This document shows, in pieces, positions 956 through 24,183 of a DNA stretch of 26,667 bases. The position numbers and the translations under genes were made by a program. Below the pieces are notes generated by a model. That model was not told where the DNA came from. It ran no database searches and saw only the letters and a list, made by a program, of their open reading frames with translations. Numbering within the stretch: position 1 is the stretch's first letter; each line of letters begins with the position of its first letter. Origin of the DNA: a virus; the IMG/VR virus record IMGVR_UViG_3300021197_001849, positions 1-26,667 of that record; one strand, 5' to 3'.

Positions 956-2069
956 ATCATCTTCTACATTTTGCATATTACCTTTCATACACATTAACGC
1001 AGCTGTATCAGGTCATTTAAGACCCTGCTGTAATACTAGAGCACACTTTCCATTTAAAGATAATGAGATTAGTCTTAATGATGCATTCCATAGTAAAGAG
1101 ATGTATGAGTTAAGAAGACAGCTTAGTAATAATGAGAAACCTGATATGTGTAAAGTCTGTTGGGATAATGAACTTATAGGTATGAAGAGCCAAAGAATAC
1201 TAAGTAATAAAAAGTTTAAAGATAAAGACGAACTTAAACTATCTTATCTAGATATGAAGTTCGACAATAAATGTAATCTTCAATGTAGAATGTGTAGTCC
1301 TTATTCCTCTAATCTTATATGGAAAACTGTAGAGCAATTTGATGAGCTTCCAAACCATCTATCTTACTTAGATATGGATAAGAAAACTTATGATGCAAAT
1401 AACAATAGCGATAAAAGAAAACAATATGTCATAGATGCTCTTCCTAATCTTACTTATCTAAAAGTAACAGGAGGAGAACCATTCATATCAGAAGACTTTC
1501 TAAACGTGTTAGATATAGCTGTAACATCAGGTTATTCTAAAAATATAACCTTATCAATTACTACCAACGGAACTAAGTTTAACAAAAAGATAATAGAAAT
1601 GTTTAGTCACTTTAAAGACATTCATATTAACATATCTATAGATGGTGTAGATGAAGTCTATAATTATATTAGATACCCTTATGACTATAAGTTATGGAAA
1701 GAAAGAGTTAATAATTTTATAGCTATGATGAATATGAAATATACTCTTCAATTTTCTACTGTAGTTACAGCTTATAATTATCTCAACTTATCTAAAATTA
1801 ATGATGAGCTAATCAGTATCAATAGTAAATGTCATATAAGTTTTAACTATGATCTTAAACCTGAGTATTCAGAGATGCATGCTAAATATTTGCCTTATGA
1901 TATATTATCTAAAGGTACATTAGAGTCTCAAAAACGTTTTGCAGAAGCTCATAAAGATACTACTACAAAACGTGATGAGTTACTAAAAACTACTATAGCT
2001 TTTGATAAGATAAGAAATCAGTCATTTGAGGATCTAGATCCTATCTTAGTAAGTTGGCTGAAGGGGTAG
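930..2069 (+). CDS. radical SAM protein, twitch-domain type (first copy)
   Basis: This encodes 379 residues. The 4Fe-4S/SAM motif CxxxCxxC is at C115, C119 and C122, followed by a VTGGEPF SAM-binding segment near residue 180 and a later SIDG strand. The N-terminus carries further cysteines (CC at 33-34, CxxC at 74-77), matching the auxiliary-cluster 'twitch' arrangement of phage radical SAM proteins. The chemistry is probably 5'-deoxyadenosyl-radical modification of an unknown substrate. A second protein of the same architecture starts at 11446. The last codons and TAG lie inside the antisense tRNA gene (2055-2137), so its C-terminus is shaped by that gene. There is no good Shine-Dalgarno, which fits coupling to the HAD gene. 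Confidence 0.9.
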   Translation: MAPSKPLDKSSSTFCILPFIHINAAVSGHLRPCCNTRAHFPFKDNEISLNDAFHSKEMYELRRQLSNNEKPDMCKVCWDNELIGMKSQRILSNKKFKDKDELKLSYLDMKFDNKCNLQCRMCSPYSSNLIWKTVEQFDELPNHLSYLDMDKKTYDANNNSDKRKQYVIDALPNLTYLKVTGGEPFISEDFLNVLDIAVTSGYSKNITLSITTNGTKFNKKIIEMFSHFKDIHINISIDGVDEVYNYIRYPYDYKLWKERVNNFIAMMNMKYTLQFSTVVTAYNYLNLSKINDELISINSKCHISFNYDLKPEYSEMHAKYLPYDILSKGTLESQKRFAEAHKDTTTKRDELLKTTIAFDKIRNQSFEDLDPILVSWLKG

Positions 2070-2137
2070 GACTCGAACCTACAAGCTAAAGCACACGAGA
2101 AACAATCGTGCGTGTTTACCAATTTCACCACCCTTCA
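2055..2137 (-). tRNA. tRNA, anticodon GUU (Asn), Leu-like D-arm and longer variable loop
   Basis: The minus strand folds as a full cloverleaf. The acceptor TGAAGGG/CCCTTCA has 7 bp, discriminator G73 and an encoded CCA (2057-2055). The D-arm is GTG/CAC with loop AAATTGGTAAA. The anticodon stem CACGA/TCGTG holds loop TTGTTTC. The T-arm is GTAGG/CCTAC with loop TTCGAGT. The loop gives anticodon GTT. GUU with G73 fits bacterial Asn identity, although the D-arm and 11-nt variable region are closer to class II (Leu-type) tRNAs. Position 37 is U where a purine is usual. The gene lies 6 nt after the stop of an Asn/Asp-type synthetase-like gene on the same strand and is probably processed from that transcript. 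Confidence 0.88.
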
Positions 2138-2143
2138 ATAACA

Positions 2144-2971
2144 TTAACCTTTTTGAGTATCTAGAGCTGCTATCATTCTAGTCATTCCAATTCCTCCTCC
2201 TACTCTAGGAAAGAAATCAAATTTTAAGAATTCTTCTAACTCTGCTTCTACTCTTTCTTTACCAAATAATTCAAATAATAATTTAGAGTAAGCACCATCA
2301 GTAATTGTATGGAATGTATCTCTCATCATATCTACATCACAACTTCGTTCTGCTGATCCAATAGTTTCCATTCCGCCTAAGATAACGTCTATCTTTTTAC
2401 TATGTACACCATCTTCATATCTACTCATATTCCAAAACGGAGAAGTCAATTCAGGAAAGTCTGTAATCATTGTACTTCCAAACTCTTTAAACATTTTAGT
2501 TTCTTCATCTGCTGTCATTTCATAATCAGTAGGAAGTCCAAAATGTCCTTGCCATTCAGCATAAGTCTTTTCTGTAATTCTACCAAAACCTAGATACTTA
2601 CATAATTCATATTCCATTGTTTTTAAATCATTAATATCACCTGGCATCTCAAATTCAAACATTGGAAATATTATATCATGTCTGCCTGGTATTGCATTAG
2701 GTTCTTGTCTATAGGAAGTGGAGACACAAAAAAAGCCAGGAGATTCTGGCTTGGATAATAATTCATGTTCTAACCACATCTGGCCTGTTTGAGGCAGAGG
2801 CCATATATTGCCTGCGTAATTATATGTTGCTACATTGAATGGATCTTCGCATGCAGCTAAAATAGATAGTCTATTTTGCGTATGTACTTCTAAGAAGCCT
2901 TTGTCCAAAAAAAATGACCTTAAAAGGCCAGTCGTCTCGGTAAATTTCTGTGGGTTTATTAGCTGTGTCAT
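2144..2971 (-). CDS. class IIb aminoacyl-tRNA synthetase catalytic core (AsnRS/AspRS-like)
   Basis: This encodes 275 residues from the ATG at 2971, preceded by AAAGGAAAA; a longer TTG start at 3010 has no ribosome site. GFLEVHT (about 25-31) resembles motif 1. SYRQEP through FEFEM (about 86-108) is motif 2 with its R-x-E pair. ETIGSAERS is the segment before motif 3, and GGGIGMTR (about 258-265) is motif 3. The N-terminal OB-fold anticodon-binding domain of AsnRS/AspRS/LysRS is absent. Core-only relatives include AsnA, the archaeal asparagine-forming AsnRS paralogue and the EF-P lysyltransferase EpmA, so it may charge tRNA, make asparagine or modify another molecule. The adjacent GUU tRNA favours an Asn-related role. 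A TATAAATA late promoter lies upstream. Confidence 0.85.
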   Translation of the reverse strand: MTQLINPQKFTETTGLLRSFFLDKGFLEVHTQNRLSILAACEDPFNVATYNYAGNIWPLPQTGQMWLEHELLSKPESPGFFCVSTSYRQEPNAIPGRHDIIFPMFEFEMPGDINDLKTMEYELCKYLGFGRITEKTYAEWQGHFGLPTDYEMTADEETKMFKEFGSTMITDFPELTSPFWNMSRYEDGVHSKKIDVILGGMETIGSAERSCDVDMMRDTFHTITDGAYSKLLFELFGKERVEAELEEFLKFDFFPRVGGGIGMTRMIAALDTQKG

Positions 2972-2997
2972 TTTATTTTCCTTTATACAAACTTGTA

Positions 2998-3005
2998 TAT
3001 TTATA
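2998..3005 (-). promoter_or_regulatory. T4-type late promoter for the synthetase-tRNA pair
   Basis: The minus strand reads TATAAATA exactly, the octamer recognised by T4 gp55. It lies 26 nt before the synthetase ATG, leaving a short leader with its ribosome site. gp55-like and gp33 genes are in this window. Activity is inferred. Confidence 0.6.
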
Positions 3006-3078
3006 CTCAATAGAGAAAAAAATTGATAAAAGATACTATAATAAATGAAATAATAACAAACAAAAAAAAGGAAATGTT

Positions 3079-9799: not shown

Positions 9800-10315
9800 A
9801 TGAAAAAAGTAAAAATCCCACAGGGAAATCCAACGACTGCTGACGAAGCCGTCAGACAATGTACTCCTCTAGTAAAGACTCTAGTTAAGAAGTGGATGCG
9901 AAACCATTATGGTGACTATGATGATCTTATGCAATCAGGTTATTGCGGAGTCATGCATGCTTATGGTAAATTTGACTTTAAGAAGAATGTTAAGTTCACT
10001 ACGTATGCATACTTCTGGATTAGAGCGTATGTAAGACTATGCGCTCTGGGTAACTGGCATGTAATGAATCATAGTGCTAGATTAGATAAGGTAGAATGGA
10101 TGGCCGAGAGTAATAACAATCCTAATGATATGTTTCGCTTCGCTAACTATATGAACGAGAGAAGGAAGATGGACTCAGACGAGCAGCAGCTTCTAGATTG
10201 GAGAGCAGAAGGTTATACGTATAGTGAGATACAAGAGATGACTGGTGCTTCTAACTTAGGTATGGTTAGAAAGAAGTGTATGGAGTTAGTAGATAGAATA
10301 GAGAAGGTAGAGTAA
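9800..10315 (+). CDS. 55: sigma70-family factor, gp55-like
   Basis: This encodes 171 residues. DYDDLMQSGYCGVMHAYGKF and VKFTTYAYFWIRAYVR (about residues 40-78) correspond to sigma region 2, which binds the core polymerase coiled coil and the -10 element. The later EGYTYSEIQEMTGASN (about 134-149) looks like a region 4-type helix-turn-helix. T4 gp55 (185 residues) is a region-2 sigma that recognises TATAAATA and works with gp33 and the sliding clamp. A gp33 homologue and TATAAATA sites in this window support the same job here. No clear hydrophobic clamp-binding tail is visible at the C-terminus. It follows the small gene at 9547 by 13 nt. Confidence 0.85.
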   Translation: MKKVKIPQGNPTTADEAVRQCTPLVKTLVKKWMRNHYGDYDDLMQSGYCGVMHAYGKFDFKKNVKFTTYAYFWIRAYVRLCALGNWHVMNHSARLDKVEWMAESNNNPNDMFRFANYMNERRKMDSDEQQLLDWRAEGYTYSEIQEMTGASNLGMVRKKCMELVDRIEKVE

Positions 10316-11445: not shown

Positions 11446-12597
11446 GTGAGTAACTGTATATGGATTGATAATGGAATGTGCGTTTCCGCTTTTGGAAAAG
11501 CTGTATTCTGTTGTATGATTCATGATCAAGGTATGAGTGTTGCTGATGATCTTTCCACTTATAACGAACGAATGATGGCTGAACGGTCTAAACCTAAGAC
11601 TGATGGTTGGTTAGATGCATGCGGTTCTTGTAAAAAGAAAGAAGATAGTGGTGCTACGTCTCGTCGTATGCGATATATTGATAAAGTCGATAAGTGGGGT
11701 CAAGCTAGAATCAAAAAAGGTAAGATACAGTTTCTAGATATATCGTTCGGTAATACCTGTAATCAAATGTGTAGTATGTGCTCTTCTGCATTCTCTTCTA
11801 AATGGTTAAAGAGAGATAAGAAGATGCTAGACACCGGAATCACATTCCGGGATAATAGTAAATCACAACACGGGTCATTACATGTTCCTGAAGCGTGGCA
11901 TCTTAGTCGAGAGAAGCTAGACGAGATATTATCAATGGTGGACGAGGACACTATTCAATGTGATATTAAAGGTGGTGAACCTCTCTATGATAAGATGTTT
12001 GAATACTTCTGTAAAGGTTTGATAGAAAGATCTCCTAGAATAAGAATATCGGTATCTACTAACTTGACCAAACTGTCGGACGAGCGTTTGGAGTTTATTA
12101 AGACTATGCCTGAAGCGCAATTTGGTTTATCTATAGACGGTATCGGTAAGACTTACGAGTTTGTTAGAGGGTGGCACGATTGGAATATAGTAGACAGGAA
12201 TACAAGACGATTAGCACAAGCTATTGACGGTGTAAGACAGAAGATTAGTATAAACTTTACTCTAATGAGATATAATATGGATCAGTTACCGGCTGTTTAT
12301 GATTACTTAGAAGATGTAGCTAAAGAATCAGGTCACAGACTAAATTTATACTTAGGTCAGATAGCTACTAGTCCTAGATCTATGAGTCCAGCTGCAGCTG
12401 ATCCTAAGATGGTACTAGTAGCATTAGAAGGTATCGACTATGTTAGAAACAAGAAGTCAAAACATGTTAGTCATGCATTATTAGATTCATTAGAAAATTA
12501 TTGTTATTCAATCTTAGATAACAGACCTCAAATACCTCAAAACCTAATTGACAATGCTCATAAGATTATGGTTGAAGAGAGAGGCTTTGAGCTGTAA
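11446..12597 (+). CDS. radical SAM protein, twitch-domain type (second copy)
   Basis: This encodes 383 residues from GTG 11446, preceded by AAGGA. The CxxxCxxC motif is at C105, C109 and C112 (NTCNQMCSMCSS), with KGGEPLYD as the GGE SAM motif and FGLSIDG later. Extra N-terminal cysteines (CC at 22-23, C59 and C62) sit in the same order as in the protein at 930-2069, so the two are paralogous in architecture. The substrate is unknown. It ends 1 nt before the Pho box of pstS and may be transcribed late from the CATAAATA at 11413-11420. Confidence 0.9.
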   Translation: MSNCIWIDNGMCVSAFGKAVFCCMIHDQGMSVADDLSTYNERMMAERSKPKTDGWLDACGSCKKKEDSGATSRRMRYIDKVDKWGQARIKKGKIQFLDISFGNTCNQMCSMCSSAFSSKWLKRDKKMLDTGITFRDNSKSQHGSLHVPEAWHLSREKLDEILSMVDEDTIQCDIKGGEPLYDKMFEYFCKGLIERSPRIRISVSTNLTKLSDERLEFIKTMPEAQFGLSIDGIGKTYEFVRGWHDWNIVDRNTRRLAQAIDGVRQKISINFTLMRYNMDQLPAVYDYLEDVAKESGHRLNLYLGQIATSPRSMSPAAADPKMVLVALEGIDYVRNKKSKHVSHALLDSLENYCYSILDNRPQIPQNLIDNAHKIMVEERGFEL

Positions 12598-12598
12598 A

Positions 12599-12626
12599 CT
12601 TCATAAAACTTTCATATAACTTTAAA
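12599..12626 (+). promoter_or_regulatory. Pho-box-like operator upstream of pstS
   Basis: Three direct repeats, CTTCAT (12599), CTTTCAT (12609) and CTTTAAA (12620), are spaced 10-11 bp apart with AT-rich linkers. This is the geometry of PhoB-binding Pho boxes (CTGTCAT units). The AT-rich DNA that follows (TATAAC, TATATC) can supply a -10. It suggests host PhoB control of pstS under phosphate limitation. Confidence 0.7.
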
Positions 12627-12704
12627 ATATCTCATTATAACTATATCATATACAAGTCTATTAATTGGTATATTAATATAATATTAAATTTCATGGAGAA
12701 ATAA

Positions 12705-13721
12705 ATGGTTAAGACTCTCTTATTAGCGCTTTCAGCAGTGTTAGTATCTAATATCTCTTTTGCTAGAGAAAACGTAAGTATTGCAGGATCATCTACAGTA
12801 CTTCCATTTGCTACAGTTATAGCAGAACAAGTTGGTAAGTATCCAAGTATGAAGACACCAGTTGTTGAATCTGGTGGTTCATCAGTTGGTAAAAAAGGTG
12901 TTTGTGACGGTACAGGATTAAACTATATTGATATAGGAAATGCATCGTCAAGAATGAAAGCTAAAGAATTAGCTTATTGTGATAAGAATAATGTCAAAGT
13001 AACTGAAATTAAAGTAGGTTATGATGGTATTGTTGTAGCTAGTAGCAAAAAAGGTGTTCAACTTAAAATTAGTAAGTATGATTTAGGTAAAGCATTAACT
13101 GCTAAGGTACCTGTAAACGGAAAGATGGTTGATAATCCATATAAAAACTGGAATGAAGTTAATCCAGATCTACCTAATATACCTATAAGAGTTATGGGAC
13201 CACCAACAACATCAGGTACTAGAGCATCATTTGTAGAGATGGTTAATCAAAAAGGTTATTGTAATAAGAGTAAAGAAGTAAAAGCTATTGGTTATAAGTC
13301 TAAAAAATGTAGAGCTATGAGAACTGACGGTGCATTTATCGAAGCGGGAGAGCAAGATAATCTTATAGTACAAAAATTACAGCAAGATGAAAAAACTTAT
13401 GGAATTTTTGGTTTTAGTTACTTAGATCAAAATAGTGATAAACTAAACGGTGCAATTATTGACGGAAGTGAACCTACTTTTGAAAATATAGCAGAAGGTA
13501 AATATAGTGTATCTAGAGCATTATATTTTTATGTCAAGCATAGTCATATAGACGTTGTCAATGGTGTTAAGGAATATATGACTGAATGGACTAAACATTG
13601 GGGTGAAGATGGTCTATTAGCAGACTATGGTATGATTCCAATGCCTAAAGAAGAAAGAGCAAAATACTCTGCAGCAATGAAAGAACTCCCAGTTCTTACT
13701 GCAGATATGCTTAAAAAATAA
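12705..13721 (+). CDS. pstS: periplasmic phosphate-binding protein PstS
   Basis: This encodes 338 residues. A signal peptide (MVKTLLLALSAVLVSNISFA, cleavage after SFA) is followed by VSIAGSSTVLPF, the N-terminal phosphate-binding loop of PstS. ESGGSSVG, then GPPTTSGTRASFVEM, complete the binding pocket, and YFYVKHSH lies near the end. PstS captures phosphate for the host PstCAB transporter. Phage copies raise uptake for DNA synthesis and are common in marine myoviruses. A Pho-box-like operator precedes it and a strong terminator follows, so it is a self-contained, host-responsive cassette. Ribosome site: GGAG at 12693-12696. Confidence 0.96.
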   Translation: MVKTLLLALSAVLVSNISFARENVSIAGSSTVLPFATVIAEQVGKYPSMKTPVVESGGSSVGKKGVCDGTGLNYIDIGNASSRMKAKELAYCDKNNVKVTEIKVGYDGIVVASSKKGVQLKISKYDLGKALTAKVPVNGKMVDNPYKNWNEVNPDLPNIPIRVMGPPTTSGTRASFVEMVNQKGYCNKSKEVKAIGYKSKKCRAMRTDGAFIEAGEQDNLIVQKLQQDEKTYGIFGFSYLDQNSDKLNGAIIDGSEPTFENIAEGKYSVSRALYFYVKHSHIDVVNGVKEYMTEWTKHWGEDGLLADYGMIPMPKEERAKYSAAMKELPVLTADMLKK

Positions 13722-13752
13722 TTATAAAATAATAAAAAAAACTTAAAAAAAA

Positions 13753-13772
13753 GGGCTTTCGAGCCCTTTTTT
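13753..13772 (+). terminator. rho-independent terminator after pstS
   Basis: GGGCT-TTCG-AGCCC (13753-13766) is followed by six T (13767-13772) and preceded by an A-run, so it can act on both strands. The next promoter begins 2 nt later. Confidence 0.92.
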
Positions 13773-13774
13773 AG

Positions 13775-13803
13775 TTGATTTTTGTCTCATTTGTTCGTAT
13801 AAT
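13775..13803 (+). promoter_or_regulatory. sigma70 early promoter (divergent cassette copy 5)
   Basis: TTGATT (13775-13780), a 17-bp spacer starting TTTG, consensus TATAAT (13798-13803), then AAGAGTATAATAAAG. The layout (terminator U-run, AG, -35) is the same as at 8919-8955. It drives the alginate-lyase-like gene. Confidence 0.8.
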
Positions 13804-13833: not shown

Positions 13834-14961
13834 ATGAGACGTTTTATTTTTGCATTTGCTTTCTTCTATATACTGTTTAAAGTTACTGGTGTAGGTGCTG
13901 TCACTTTTACTGAATATTTTCATACTAACGAAAGTAATAATTTAATTCAAAATAGAGGTTCTGATATCGAATTAGATAACAGTTCAACTAATTTTATAAA
14001 AAGAGTAGTAGGTTATGACTGGCAAAAAGATCATGATAAGAATAGTAATAGTTTAACTGTTAACTTTAGAAAAATTTCTGATCCTATTACTTATCTTAAT
14101 AGTGGTATATGGAATGCTACTCGTACTAAGAACGAAGATCATATTAATAACGGTAAGAAGTTATTAGTAGAGATTGCTAAAGCTAATACTTTATACGATA
14201 CTATTAGTCCTAAAAAAGCTAGTAGTATGGGTAGATGTTATGCTAACGGAGTTAAGTCTAGTTGTCATATTCATGCATCTCAAGAAGCTATGGTATTCGC
14301 TTCTCATTATATTATATCTGCTATTAATATTAAGAAGTATATTACTGCTGACGAAAAAGTAATTATTGATGGTTATATTAATAACATGTATACTAAGTTT
14401 ATTAAGCCTTTAGCAGAACAAGATGTTAGTAGAGGTATCTATCAAATGGCTAATGGTGGTATAGGTAGATTAGCTTATGCTCATTGGACTAATGATATAC
14501 AGTTAGCTAAAGATGAGTTTAAGAAAAGATTTGCTCAATTCGATAAACTTACTCTTAAAGATGGTTACTATAATAATAATTCTTTTAGAGGTGTAAGAGC
14601 TTTATGGTATCATAGTATGGGTCTTAATAATGTATTAGGTTATATTGCTATAGCTAAAGCTTGGAACGTAGATGTACCTAAGACAGTTATAGATAAAGCT
14701 AAATTATCTGCTAAAGTTAATAACTTAGGTATAGATAACTATAAAGGTTTTAAATCTAGAAGTAAGCCTTTCAATATTTCAAATAAGAATAGTAGCTTCA
14801 AAGCTAAGCATGCTAGAAAGCATTCGCATCAATTTGCAACTGGTTTAGATATACTAATGAAAAAGATTGGTGTTGAGATGACTTATGACCCTATATGGAA
14901 TAGAAAAAAAGGTTATTCACACATAGATCGTCAATTAGGTTTTCATCCGAAAACTCTATAA
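13834..14961 (+). CDS. secreted alginate-lyase-like (PL5-type) protein
   Basis: This encodes 375 residues with an N-terminal signal peptide (FIFAFAFFYILFKVTGVGA). The body is helical. DEFKKRFAQFDKLTLKDGYY followed by FRGVRALWYHSMGLNNVLGYI resembles the AlgL segment around RALAYHN, which carries the catalytic Arg and Tyr; both are present here. The upstream NNHSYW site of AlgL, with the catalytic His, aligns with NGGIGR, so that His appears lost or moved. It may cleave an acidic polysaccharide of the host surface or matrix, or only bind it. ATG 13834 has AAGGAG upstream. It has its own sigma70 promoter and terminator, like a moron gene. Confidence 0.65.
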   Translation: MRRFIFAFAFFYILFKVTGVGAVTFTEYFHTNESNNLIQNRGSDIELDNSSTNFIKRVVGYDWQKDHDKNSNSLTVNFRKISDPITYLNSGIWNATRTKNEDHINNGKKLLVEIAKANTLYDTISPKKASSMGRCYANGVKSSCHIHASQEAMVFASHYIISAINIKKYITADEKVIIDGYINNMYTKFIKPLAEQDVSRGIYQMANGGIGRLAYAHWTNDIQLAKDEFKKRFAQFDKLTLKDGYYNNNSFRGVRALWYHSMGLNNVLGYIAIAKAWNVDVPKTVIDKAKLSAKVNNLGIDNYKGFKSRSKPFNISNKNSSFKAKHARKHSHQFATGLDILMKKIGVEMTYDPIWNRKKGYSHIDRQLGFHPKTL

Positions 14962-14972
14962 TTACTTAAGGG

Positions 14973-15236
14973 TTAGACGCCTAGTTTATTAGGTGTCTTT
15001 CCTTCAATTTCTTTTTGCATTTCTAACATCTCGTCTTTAGTAAGACAATATAGTGAATGAGGTTGATTCTGGAATTTATACTCTTTAGCAGCTTTATAAC
15101 CTATTGAGTAGTTATTTTTTCGAACAAAGTCTAAGCACTCGTATTGCACTTCAAAGGTAGGTTTCGTATAAATGTAAAACTGAACCTCGCCGGCGATTGT
15201 TAGAACTTGCATCATTACTACAATGAAATAAGTCAT
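14973..15236 (-). CDS. small membrane-anchored or secreted hypothetical protein
   Basis: This encodes 87 residues. A hydrophobic N-terminus (MTYFIVVMMQVLTIAGEVQF) may be a signal or anchor. It is followed by a soluble part with two Cys (YECLDFV, LYCLTKDEM). The general plan (hydrophobic start, ECLxF, later Cys near the end) resembles the small protein at 19710-19931. The ATG is inside a perfect 12-bp inverted repeat (15231-15267), and no Shine-Dalgarno is visible. Function unknown. Confidence 0.72.
   Translation of the reverse strand: MTYFIVVMMQVLTIAGEVQFYIYTKPTFEVQYECLDFVRKNNYSIGYKAAKEYKFQNQPHSLYCLTKDEMLEMQKEIEGKTPNKLGV
14975..15000. terminator. terminator between convergent genes
   Basis: AGACGCCTA (14975-14983) pairs with TAGGTGTCT (14990-14998) with one G-U, around GTTTAT, followed by T's on the plus strand. 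It overlaps the last codons of the minus-strand gene ending at 14973. Confidence 0.75.
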
Positions 15237-22432: not shown

Positions 22433-23096
22433 AATATTCCTCTATTCTTTCTTTTAACATGTTAGTATAATGAATAATATCTTTTTTAGTTAGTGTAAAG
22501 TTTTGAATAGAACCATCCTGTACTGATATTAAAATACTTATTTGTTCTGGCATTTCTTGAGTAATTTCTCTATATGCAATTAAGTAAAAACAACCTTGCA
22601 TAAAATAATCTTCTATCCACTCAGTCTTTTTAGGTTTAGTAGAAGTTTTAAAATCTATAACTGTAAGCTTACCATCTAATTCAGCAATACAATCGACAGT
22701 ACCAGCTACTTTTAGTATATGAGAAAATAAAGGAGTTTCTAAACACCTAACATTATCAATATGATCTAACTGTGGACGTATGCTCCTAAAGAGTAACTCA
22801 CCAGTAGTGTCAGCAGAAAGATCCAAAACCTCATTTGACAAGTAAGATTCACAAAGCTTATGCATCGACGTGCCACGTCTTGTAGCAGATATTGTAACTC
22901 TATTCGCGTGTTCCTCACCAACCCTTTTACGCCAGCGTAAAAGTGGACCTTTGTCTTTAGTTTTAGATAAGACAGTTGTAATGGAAGGATACGCACTCTC
23001 TCCATTAACTTCATATAATCTTCCTTCTTCACTATTTACTTGCTTAATCTTTGGAATATCTTTCCAAAGATGATTGAATTTTTTTGACGTCATCAT
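22416..23096 (-). CDS. PD-(D/E)XK nuclease (RecB/Cas4-like)
   Basis: This encodes 226 residues. RRGTSMHKLCESYL (about 69-82) supplies the motif I His. VAGTVDCIAEL with LTVIDFKTSTK (about 130-152) is the core GxVD...DxK, with the metal-binding Asp residues and catalytic Lys. YFMQGCFYLIAYRE carries the QxxxY motif. This is the RecB/Cas4 exonuclease pattern seen in T4-like marine phages; no iron-sulfur cysteines typical of Cas4 are visible. It would trim DNA ends in recombination or host DNA breakdown. Its start overlaps the ClpX gene end by 53 nt. Confidence 0.88.
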   Translation of the reverse strand: MMTSKKFNHLWKDIPKIKQVNSEEGRLYEVNGESAYPSITTVLSKTKDKGPLLRWRKRVGEEHANRVTISATRRGTSMHKLCESYLSNEVLDLSADTTGELLFRSIRPQLDHIDNVRCLETPLFSHILKVAGTVDCIAELDGKLTVIDFKTSTKPKKTEWIEDYFMQGCFYLIAYREITQEMPEQISILISVQDGSIQNFTLTKKDIIHYTNMLKERIEEYYGSIN

Positions 23097-24183
23097 TAGT
23101 TACTGTAGTACTTTTAAGTTCAAACATTGCATCTAAAAGTACATTCTCCATAATAGTTTTAAGTCCTCGCGCTCCAGTTTTTTGATCTTTAGCCAACTTA
23201 GCTATCGCTTCCAATCCTTCTTGAGTAAACTCTAGCTTTGCATCGGACTTTGCAAATAACTTTGTATATTGGTCTACTGGATTGTTCTTTACTTTAGTAA
23301 GAATATAAATTAAATCTTGAATAGTTAATTCATCTAAAGATGCAGTCAAAGGTATTCTACCTATTAATTCAGGAATAAAACCATATTCTTCTATATCTTG
23401 AGGACTACAATATTTTAATAAAGTAGAATTGTATTCATGCTCTTTTATATCAGCATTTACACCAATATTAGTAGTAGGTGCTACTTTTAATCTCTTGCCT
23501 ATATTTTCTTCAAGACCTACAAATGCGCCGCCTACAATAAAGAATATATTAGTAGTATCAATTTGTATCTTCATTCTAGTTAGACCAGTGTTGCGTTCTA
23601 CTTCAACCATAGTACCTTCCATAAGCTTAAGTAATGCTTGCTGTACACCTTCGCCGCCTACATCTCTTTGCTTACCACCGTTCCATCTTCTAGCTATCTT
23701 ATCAAACTCATCTATAAAAATAATACCAGTTCCTGCTGCTTCAAACGCACCGTTAGCTGCAGCTATTAATCCATCTACTAAAGTTTCGACGTCTTTACCT
23801 ACATAACCTGCTGCAGTTAAACTATTAGCATCAGCAATGTGATAAGGTACTTTCATGAACTCAGCTAATCTTTTTACAAGATAAGTTTTACCAGTACCAG
23901 TAGGACCTATAAGCATAACGTTAGTTTTATCTAACCTATCTTGAAACTTAGTATCTCTGTATATTAATAATCTTTTATAATGATTATGAGCTGCTACTGA
24001 AAGAACTTTTTTAGCTCTATCCTGACCCACTACATACTCGTTTAGATAATCGTATATCTCTTTAGGGGTAGGTAAAGTAAAATCTATAATTGCTGCTGAT
24101 TCGTCGGCTAGCTCAACCTTTTCTCTAAGACCTTCTAACATATTAGTTAGAAACTCATTATCTTTCTTAATTAACATACTCAT
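23044..24183 (-). CDS. clpX: ClpX-like AAA+ unfoldase lacking the zinc domain
   Basis: This encodes 379 residues. PTPKEIYDYLNEYVVGQ begins the AAA+ module. Walker A GPTGTGKT is at 93-100, pore loop GYVG at 126-129, Walker B IIFIDEFDK at 154-162, RDVGGEGVQQALLKLMEGT after it, the Arg-finger segment PELIGR at 271-276, and sensor II TGARGL near 350. The N-terminal four-Cys zinc domain of bacterial ClpX is absent, the RKH pore loop is not recognisable, and the ClpP-contact IGF is IGV (240-242). It may unfold or remodel phage or host proteins, with altered adaptor and protease use. It lies in the replication operon. Confidence 0.93.
   Translation of the reverse strand: MSMLIKKDNEFLTNMLEGLREKVELADESAAIIDFTLPTPKEIYDYLNEYVVGQDRAKKVLSVAAHNHYKRLLIYRDTKFQDRLDKTNVMLIGPTGTGKTYLVKRLAEFMKVPYHIADANSLTAAGYVGKDVETLVDGLIAAANGAFEAAGTGIIFIDEFDKIARRWNGGKQRDVGGEGVQQALLKLMEGTMVEVERNTGLTRMKIQIDTTNIFFIVGGAFVGLEENIGKRLKVAPTTNIGVNADIKEHEYNSTLLKYCSPQDIEEYGFIPELIGRIPLTASLDELTIQDLIYILTKVKNNPVDQYTKLFAKSDAKLEFTQEGLEAIAKLAKDQKTGARGLKTIMENVLLDAMFELKSTTVTNDDVKKIQSSLERYSKD

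Follow-up and report, generated by a model that had tools for sequence, protein, structure and literature searches.

Can a phage-borne pstS gene be switched on by the phosphate-starvation regulator of the infected host? The question is raised by a stretch of viral DNA of 26,667 nucleotides (IMG/VR record IMGVR_UViG_3300021197_001849; hereafter the window), a virus record with T4-like gp32, helicase loader, exonuclease and tail tube genes, for which a preliminary description had proposed a pstS cassette governed by a Pho box and probably induced by host PhoB.

The pstS cassette and its repeat array

The pstS gene occupies positions 12705-13721 (+ strand) and encodes a complete periplasmic phosphate-binding protein of 338 aa (PF12849, 9jwy), as had been described, with a Shine-Dalgarno-like GGAG at 12695-12698 (+), 6 nt 5' of the ATG. 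Upstream of it lies a Pho-box-like array (12598-12630, +) of three 11-bp direct repeats, ACTTCATAAAA, CTTTCATATAA and CTTTAAAATAT, which start in register at 12598, 12609 and 12620, and the two or more direct 11-bp units of a class I-like PhoB promoter are therefore present; a possible fourth unit at 12631 is poor, with mismatches at 5 of 7 positions. The three CTTTCAT-like repeats of the preliminary description stood, whereas their spacing, given there as 10-11 bp, is in truth 11 + 11 bp, the first unit having been set one base late. A candidate -10 element, TATAAC (12636-12641, +), agrees with TATAAT at 5 of 6 positions, lacking the final T, and begins at +27 when 12609 is taken as box start. 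The array abuts the stop codon of a radical SAM protein gene located 5' of pstS (11446-12597, +; PF04055, 3.3e-13), and the terminator scan detected no terminator-like site between that gene and pstS, so that read-through into pstS is possible.

The terminator said to close the gene was recovered at 13747-13772 (+) as an intrinsic terminator with a stem of 11 bp and a TTCG loop; it is terminator-like on the - strand too, and these two sites were the only ones in the 3.9 kb scanned (1.1 expected). ORF375, which lies 3' of the terminator (13834-14961, +; 375 aa, no family), has its own sigma70-like promoter-like site at 13775-13803 and is outside the pstS cassette. Family and viral-relative searches with ORF375 returned no match; its N terminus is signal-like, and a low-confidence model of it, mostly helical, was set aside as a single-sequence prediction with a mean pLDDT of 47.

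The closest phages that cover this place are L177 and L178, whose gp32 proteins are 74% and 69% identical to that of the window. Between the homologues of a small sigma-like gene (9800-10315) and of the gene at 14973-15236, they carry two and three other small ORFs, and neither pstS, the radical SAM gene nor ORF375 had a match at that place. A search of 14 gp32-related records also found no pstS, a result of low negative value, and the near-identical contig L173 breaks inside ORF375. We regard pstS as probably a cargo gene. Elsewhere in the window, a tRNA-Asn gene adjoins a class II (D/K/N) aminoacyl-tRNA synthetase-like gene at 2055-3010 (-), 81-83% homologues of which lie near pstS in four viral loci (L007, L045, L046 and L060), and a ClpX-like ATPase gene above the NCBIfam cut-off (23044-24183, -) sits between the exonuclease and tail genes and was matched in 21 of 47 gp32-related loci.

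Simple counting of the heptamer was rejected as evidence, there being no excess over expectation: the window has 155 copies of CTTTCAT when one mismatch is tolerated, where 145 are expected, and 20 of 100 shuffles reached 155. Three CTTTCAT-like heptamers 10-11 bp apart with at most two mismatches have seven start places across the window, of which two overlap. When the intergenic region was shuffled 10,000 times, the same pattern arose in 79 of the shuffles, a number that rose to 4,805 when three mismatches were allowed. Because the bare repeat pattern is weak evidence, a Pho-box motif was learned without the window sequence, by applying expectation-maximisation to the 200-bp upstream regions of 77 pstS genes, all bacterial. 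The resulting motif, tTGTcAtAaAactGTAAcA.aac.gTcaT, represents a Pho box built from 11-bp units, and its matrix recovered the known sites of E. coli as the best of their regions, at -106 for K-12 pstS (30.8 bits) and at -80 for phoA (15.5 bits).

When all positions of the window were scored on both strands, the top site was 12598-12626 (11.8 bits; runner-up, 8.5). Dinucleotide shuffling of the intergenic region (107 bp) reached 11.8 bits in 3 of 10,000 trials. The same score was attained somewhere in 109 of 300 simulated whole windows, so that the location of the site before pstS forms part of the argument. The window units lack the conserved G of TGTCA, reading TTTCA or CTTCA where the matrix has this G in 92% and 80% of sites (first and second units), and the box scores below most of those found in boxed relatives. 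Identification of the repeats as a Pho box was thus borne out by an independent bacterial matrix, as a box weaker than average.

Pho boxes and promoter cores upstream of viral pstS genes

Two scans of viral contigs supplied 65 pstS loci from 55 distinct contigs; a phage collection added Pelagibacter phage Mosig, for a set of 66 loci in 56 records in which 10 contigs were counted twice. With the window included, seven loci were dropped for want of a usable start or of 120 bp of upstream sequence, and the remaining 60 upstream regions were reduced to 44 by collapsing identical 120-bp upstreams. Locus L013 (CAKLQF020000007.1), labelled 'Acinetobacter phage MD-2021a', was excluded from the viral counts because it looks chromosomal; its pstS-like gene is accompanied by pstC, pstA, pstB, an aromatic amino acid permease and an adhesin, and the label is probably wrong.

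Each tested against its own shuffles, 27 of the 44 viral upstreams had a box at p<=0.01 and 30 at p<=0.05, and in 28 of the 44 the site upstream of pstS was the best of its locus (0.59 expected). A box of at least 8 bits was present in 31, and none of that strength was found in the other 13, among them Mosig and the window's nearest relative, L014 (80%). Related upstreams remain among the 44 rows, which were therefore grouped by BLAST links: with box and core masked they fell into 25 groups, 14 of which had a member at p<=0.01, and without masking into 19, 8 of which had such a member, the number being smaller because the boxes themselves link rows. The genes around these boxes vary, with 30 families among the genes 5' of pstS in 40 viral loci (mechanical ORF calling). 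No match to pstC, pstA or pstB was found in any of the 66 viral loci (56 records) or in the window, all contig fragments, in contrast to the cellular loci, 78 of 80 of which had at least one of these genes and 66 all three. That boxes and core spacing are kept while neighbours and the remaining upstream sequence change suggests selection, and box and pstS seem to travel as a unit.

The spacing in question is that between box and promoter core. In 11 of the 31 boxed upstreams the offset of TATAAT from a box start is exactly +28, and in 11 others that of TAAATA is exactly +29; L036 and L051 are examples of relatives with a TAAATA core. Further offset maxima, at 17 and 40, mostly represent identical places counted from the adjacent 11-bp unit, and TAAATA at +32 was seen in three related upstreams. 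The TATAAT cases belong to 4 masked groups and the TAAATA cases to 7, with no group holding both. Without masking, all 11 TATAAT cases fall into one group, and they may accordingly share one ancestral promoter, with box and core kept by common descent. The pstS tree mixes the core types, pairing L052 (TATAAT) with L053 (TAAATA) at 86/91 and grouping L015 and L016 (TATAAT) with L018 (TAAATA) at 97/95, which we read as the operator being kept while the core changes. The TATAAC of the window, off by 1 bp, is nearest to the TATAAT type and imperfect.

TAAATA corresponds to the core of the T4 late promoter, given as TATAAAT in the portion of PMC3037559 available to us. Upstream of genes, NATAAATA shows strand orientation in the contig of L008 (G006), with 10 sense to 0 antisense occurrences; the counts are 12 to 3 in that of L038 (G008), whose pstS itself lacks a box, and 2 to 1 in the window. 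Over whole contigs, the exact octamer TATAAATA was counted against its reversed control at 7 to 6 in G006, 6 to 13 in G007 and 20 to 7 in G008, and exceeds the control clearly only in the last. A search with the window's sigma-like protein found no late sigma factor gp55 among 11 records, Mosig included, and the Pfam model gave a weak match in Mosig only, with no clear gp55 in these contigs; gp55 was consequently dropped as proof of late promoters. The window protein itself (9800-10315, +) is small and sigma-factor-like over region 2 only (PF04542, 4e-12; phrog_351; PDB sigma region 2 matches), and by its sequence could be a gp55-type late sigma factor. A late promoter at the window pstS was rejected, no TAAATA being present at the box.

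From these cores we tentatively propose, at somewhat less than an even chance, that related marine T4-like phages have set a host PhoB operator at the same helical position on both sigma70-type TATAAT and late-type TAAATA cores, the window promoter being of the early type. If true, this would mean that the late transcription machinery of a phage is gated by the host's phosphate-starvation regulator, or alternatively that one switch governs a pstS which belongs to the early programme in some phages and to the late programme in others; in the late-core version, if it works, a bacterial two-component regulator would act on phage late transcription.

Many viral pstS leaders form hairpins, but a leader RNA element was rejected for the window, since its leader fold is weak (-7.2 kcal/mol) and Rfam returned only a tRNA on the window. 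In seven viral loci (L009:1574, L010:2132, L019:2960, L036:2956, L045:2958, L053:2961 and L056:2835) a leader hairpin with the loop GTTGAGAC and a stem varying from 6 to 12 bp lies approximately 37-45 nt before pstS, and at the remaining copies of GTTGAGAC in these loci the stem does not exceed 6 bp. This hairpin, absent from the window, is possibly an RNA element.

PstS relatives and the probable host

The window protein passed the Pfam cut-off for PF12849 (PBP_like_2; 130.7 bits against 27, E 1.1e-37) and matched the solved phosphate-binding protein 9jwy at E 4.6e-75; against TIGR02136 it scored 142 bits, under the NCBIfam cut-off of 206.6. Its N terminus has by eye a typical export-signal-like stretch ending ..ISFA/RE, and alanine 20 and arginine 21 are invariant in the alignment. 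Among the best 80 of 574 cellular matches, which were the loci kept (77 used for motif training and 30 for the tree), the closest were SAR116 (72-75%), an alphaproteobacterium (68%) and Litorivicinus/HIMB30 (66%).

A maximum-likelihood tree was built from 75 rows, made up of 44 viral proteins, 30 of the 79 cellular ones and one other. In it, 42 viral proteins and the five nearest cells formed one supported group (99/99) with the cells inside it. The viral label requires at least five changes on this tree, which makes several transfers likely. The window PstS pairs with L014 (99/99) and is placed, weakly supported (83/87), in the cluster that includes SAR116. The pstS boxes of the five nearest cells score 18.8-24.2 bits, all five having been part of the training set. 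A strong PhoB match (E 1.3e-85 or better) was found in four of the five nearest-cell genomes; of these matches, those in Litorivicinus and HIMB30 alone exceed the family cut-off. One SAR116 genome gave weak PhoB matches only, and the other has a PhoB-like gene ~0.7 kb behind pstB, judged by coordinates.

SAR116 is a favoured guess for the host. Counting against a guess made from pstS alone is gp32, for which the named phages nearest to the window, among the matches listed, were mostly Synechococcus phages at 45-52% identity, none reaching 60% (2414 records). Alphaproteobacterial-type permuted tmRNA genes occur on 2 of 15 scanned viral pstS contigs (L045:19-274 and L011:1821-2177), a hint of alphaproteobacterial hosts.

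A separate observation concerns a calcineurin-like phosphoesterase gene that lies directly 3' of pstS, or overlaps its end, in L023 (4027-4812), L034, L048, L050, L052 and L057, and that stands divergently beside pstS in Mosig (L012:5068-5805); the window contains no such gene. One of the five nearest-cell genomes, a SAR116, has a homologue (51%) directly 5' of a glycosyltransferase-DAG kinase gene, with a Pho-box-like site of 12.3 bits upstream, an arrangement that resembles the plcP-agt arrangement in the portion of PMC4796936 available to us. It is likely that pstS and plcP form a viral phosphorus operon that serves to remodel membrane lipids, and no paper on viral plcP was apparent from titles and abstract openings among the matches listed.

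Proposed regulation and relation to known systems

We consider it probable that the window carries a solo phage pstS cassette, equipped with a PhoB-activated promoter and a terminator of its own, that is induced in a phosphate-short host and whose PstS serves the host PstCAB. From the sequence we infer PhoB binding, a phosphate response, the partnership with PstCAB and a benefit to the phage as follows. When the infected host runs short of phosphate, host PhoB would be phosphorylated and bind the 11-bp repeats, which would stand in for the -35, and would from there recruit RNA polymerase to the weak -10 at ~12636, with transcription starting near 12648. The phage PstS would be exported to the periplasm and supply phosphate to the host PstCAB pump while host messages fail, and this supply would sustain phage production.

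PhoB control is open to doubt mainly because the box is weak, the -10 is imperfect and read-through is possible. In a different account, which we judge unlikely, pstS is an ordinary accessory gene expressed by the phage, the repeats are an AT-rich remnant of a host-gene promoter no longer bound by PhoB, and transcription comes by read-through from the radical SAM gene (11446-12597) or from an unregulated phage promoter. The stretch between the radical SAM gene and pstS, free of terminator-like sites, would suit such a relic, as would a box that lacks the conserved G and scores below those of most boxed relatives, and the 13 of 44 viral upstreams, the nearest relative's included, in which no box of at least 8 bits was found. 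Against it, all three units are intact and in 11-bp register, shuffled sequences seldom score as high (3 of 10,000), and the relatives keep boxes and core spacing despite changing neighbours and upstream sequence, as selection would have it. A further account, which we hold to be very improbable, has another host or phage regulator binding the repeats, with a promoter that follows the infection programme rather than phosphate. Several sites of the OmpR family are likewise laid out as direct repeats at ~11 bp, and half of the relatives' clear cores resemble phage late promoters, so that phage timing may matter; yet the matrix was built from bacterial pstS promoters and recovers known E. coli PhoB sites, and pstS is a classic PhoB target.

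The proposed PhoB-activated cassette has its closest precedent in the cyanophages. Control of phage pstS by host PhoBR is reported for Prochlorococcus phage P-SSM2 and Synechococcus phage S-SM1 in the portion of PMC10976474 available to us, which also describes, for S-PM2d, four tested promoters with a predicted Pho box, two that bound PhoB and two that did not, and one promoter that bound PhoB with no predicted box; predicted phage Pho boxes can thus fail. Nine cyanophage pstS genes are flanked by promoters and terminators with no single regulatory solution apparent, according to the accessible part of PMC3037559, and public phage data hold 42 pstS genes, 31 of them marine, in that of PMC10987575, where the term 'pho box' is not used. 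Among the matches listed, titles and abstract openings yielded no report of phages outside the cyanophages with a Pho box upstream of pstS, nor of any Pho box combined with a late promoter of a phage.

Like these cyanophages, as far as those excerpts describe them, the window belongs to a T4-like marine phage with its own pstS set between a promoter and a terminator. It differs from them in PstS family, in its proteobacterial type of Pho box and in its probable host: the P-SSM2 protein, the one cyanophage PstS compared, shares 26% identity with that of the window over 118 aa (E 0.006), which places the latter outside the cyanophage family; the bacterial matrix finds no box at P-SSM2 pstS, and the box of the window follows the 11-bp proteobacterial pattern; and the nearest cells by PstS are relatives of SAR116 and Litorivicinus, not cyanobacteria. 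Mosig (EXVC030M, MT647606), which has a cultured SAR11 host, resembles the window in a pstS 43% identical and free of pstC, pstA and pstB nearby, and differs from it in its neighbours and in the lack of a matrix box upstream. The PhoB-dependent pstS and phoA promoters of E. coli, best sites of the same matrix, share the tandem 11-bp units of the window, whose units read TTTCAT or CTTCAT in place of TGTCAT and whose pstS stands without pstC, pstA and pstB. The pstS genes of SAR116, Litorivicinus and HIMB30 (L069, L070, L072 and L073) encode proteins 66-74% identical to that of the window and have a Pho box, but they belong to chromosomal pst loci with pstC, pstA and pstB behind pstS. Set beside these systems, the window would extend the cyanophage idea, that a phage reads the phosphate sensor of its host, to phages whose pstS is nearest to that of ocean heterotrophs (SAR116, Litorivicinus), and it gives that idea a concrete promoter architecture.
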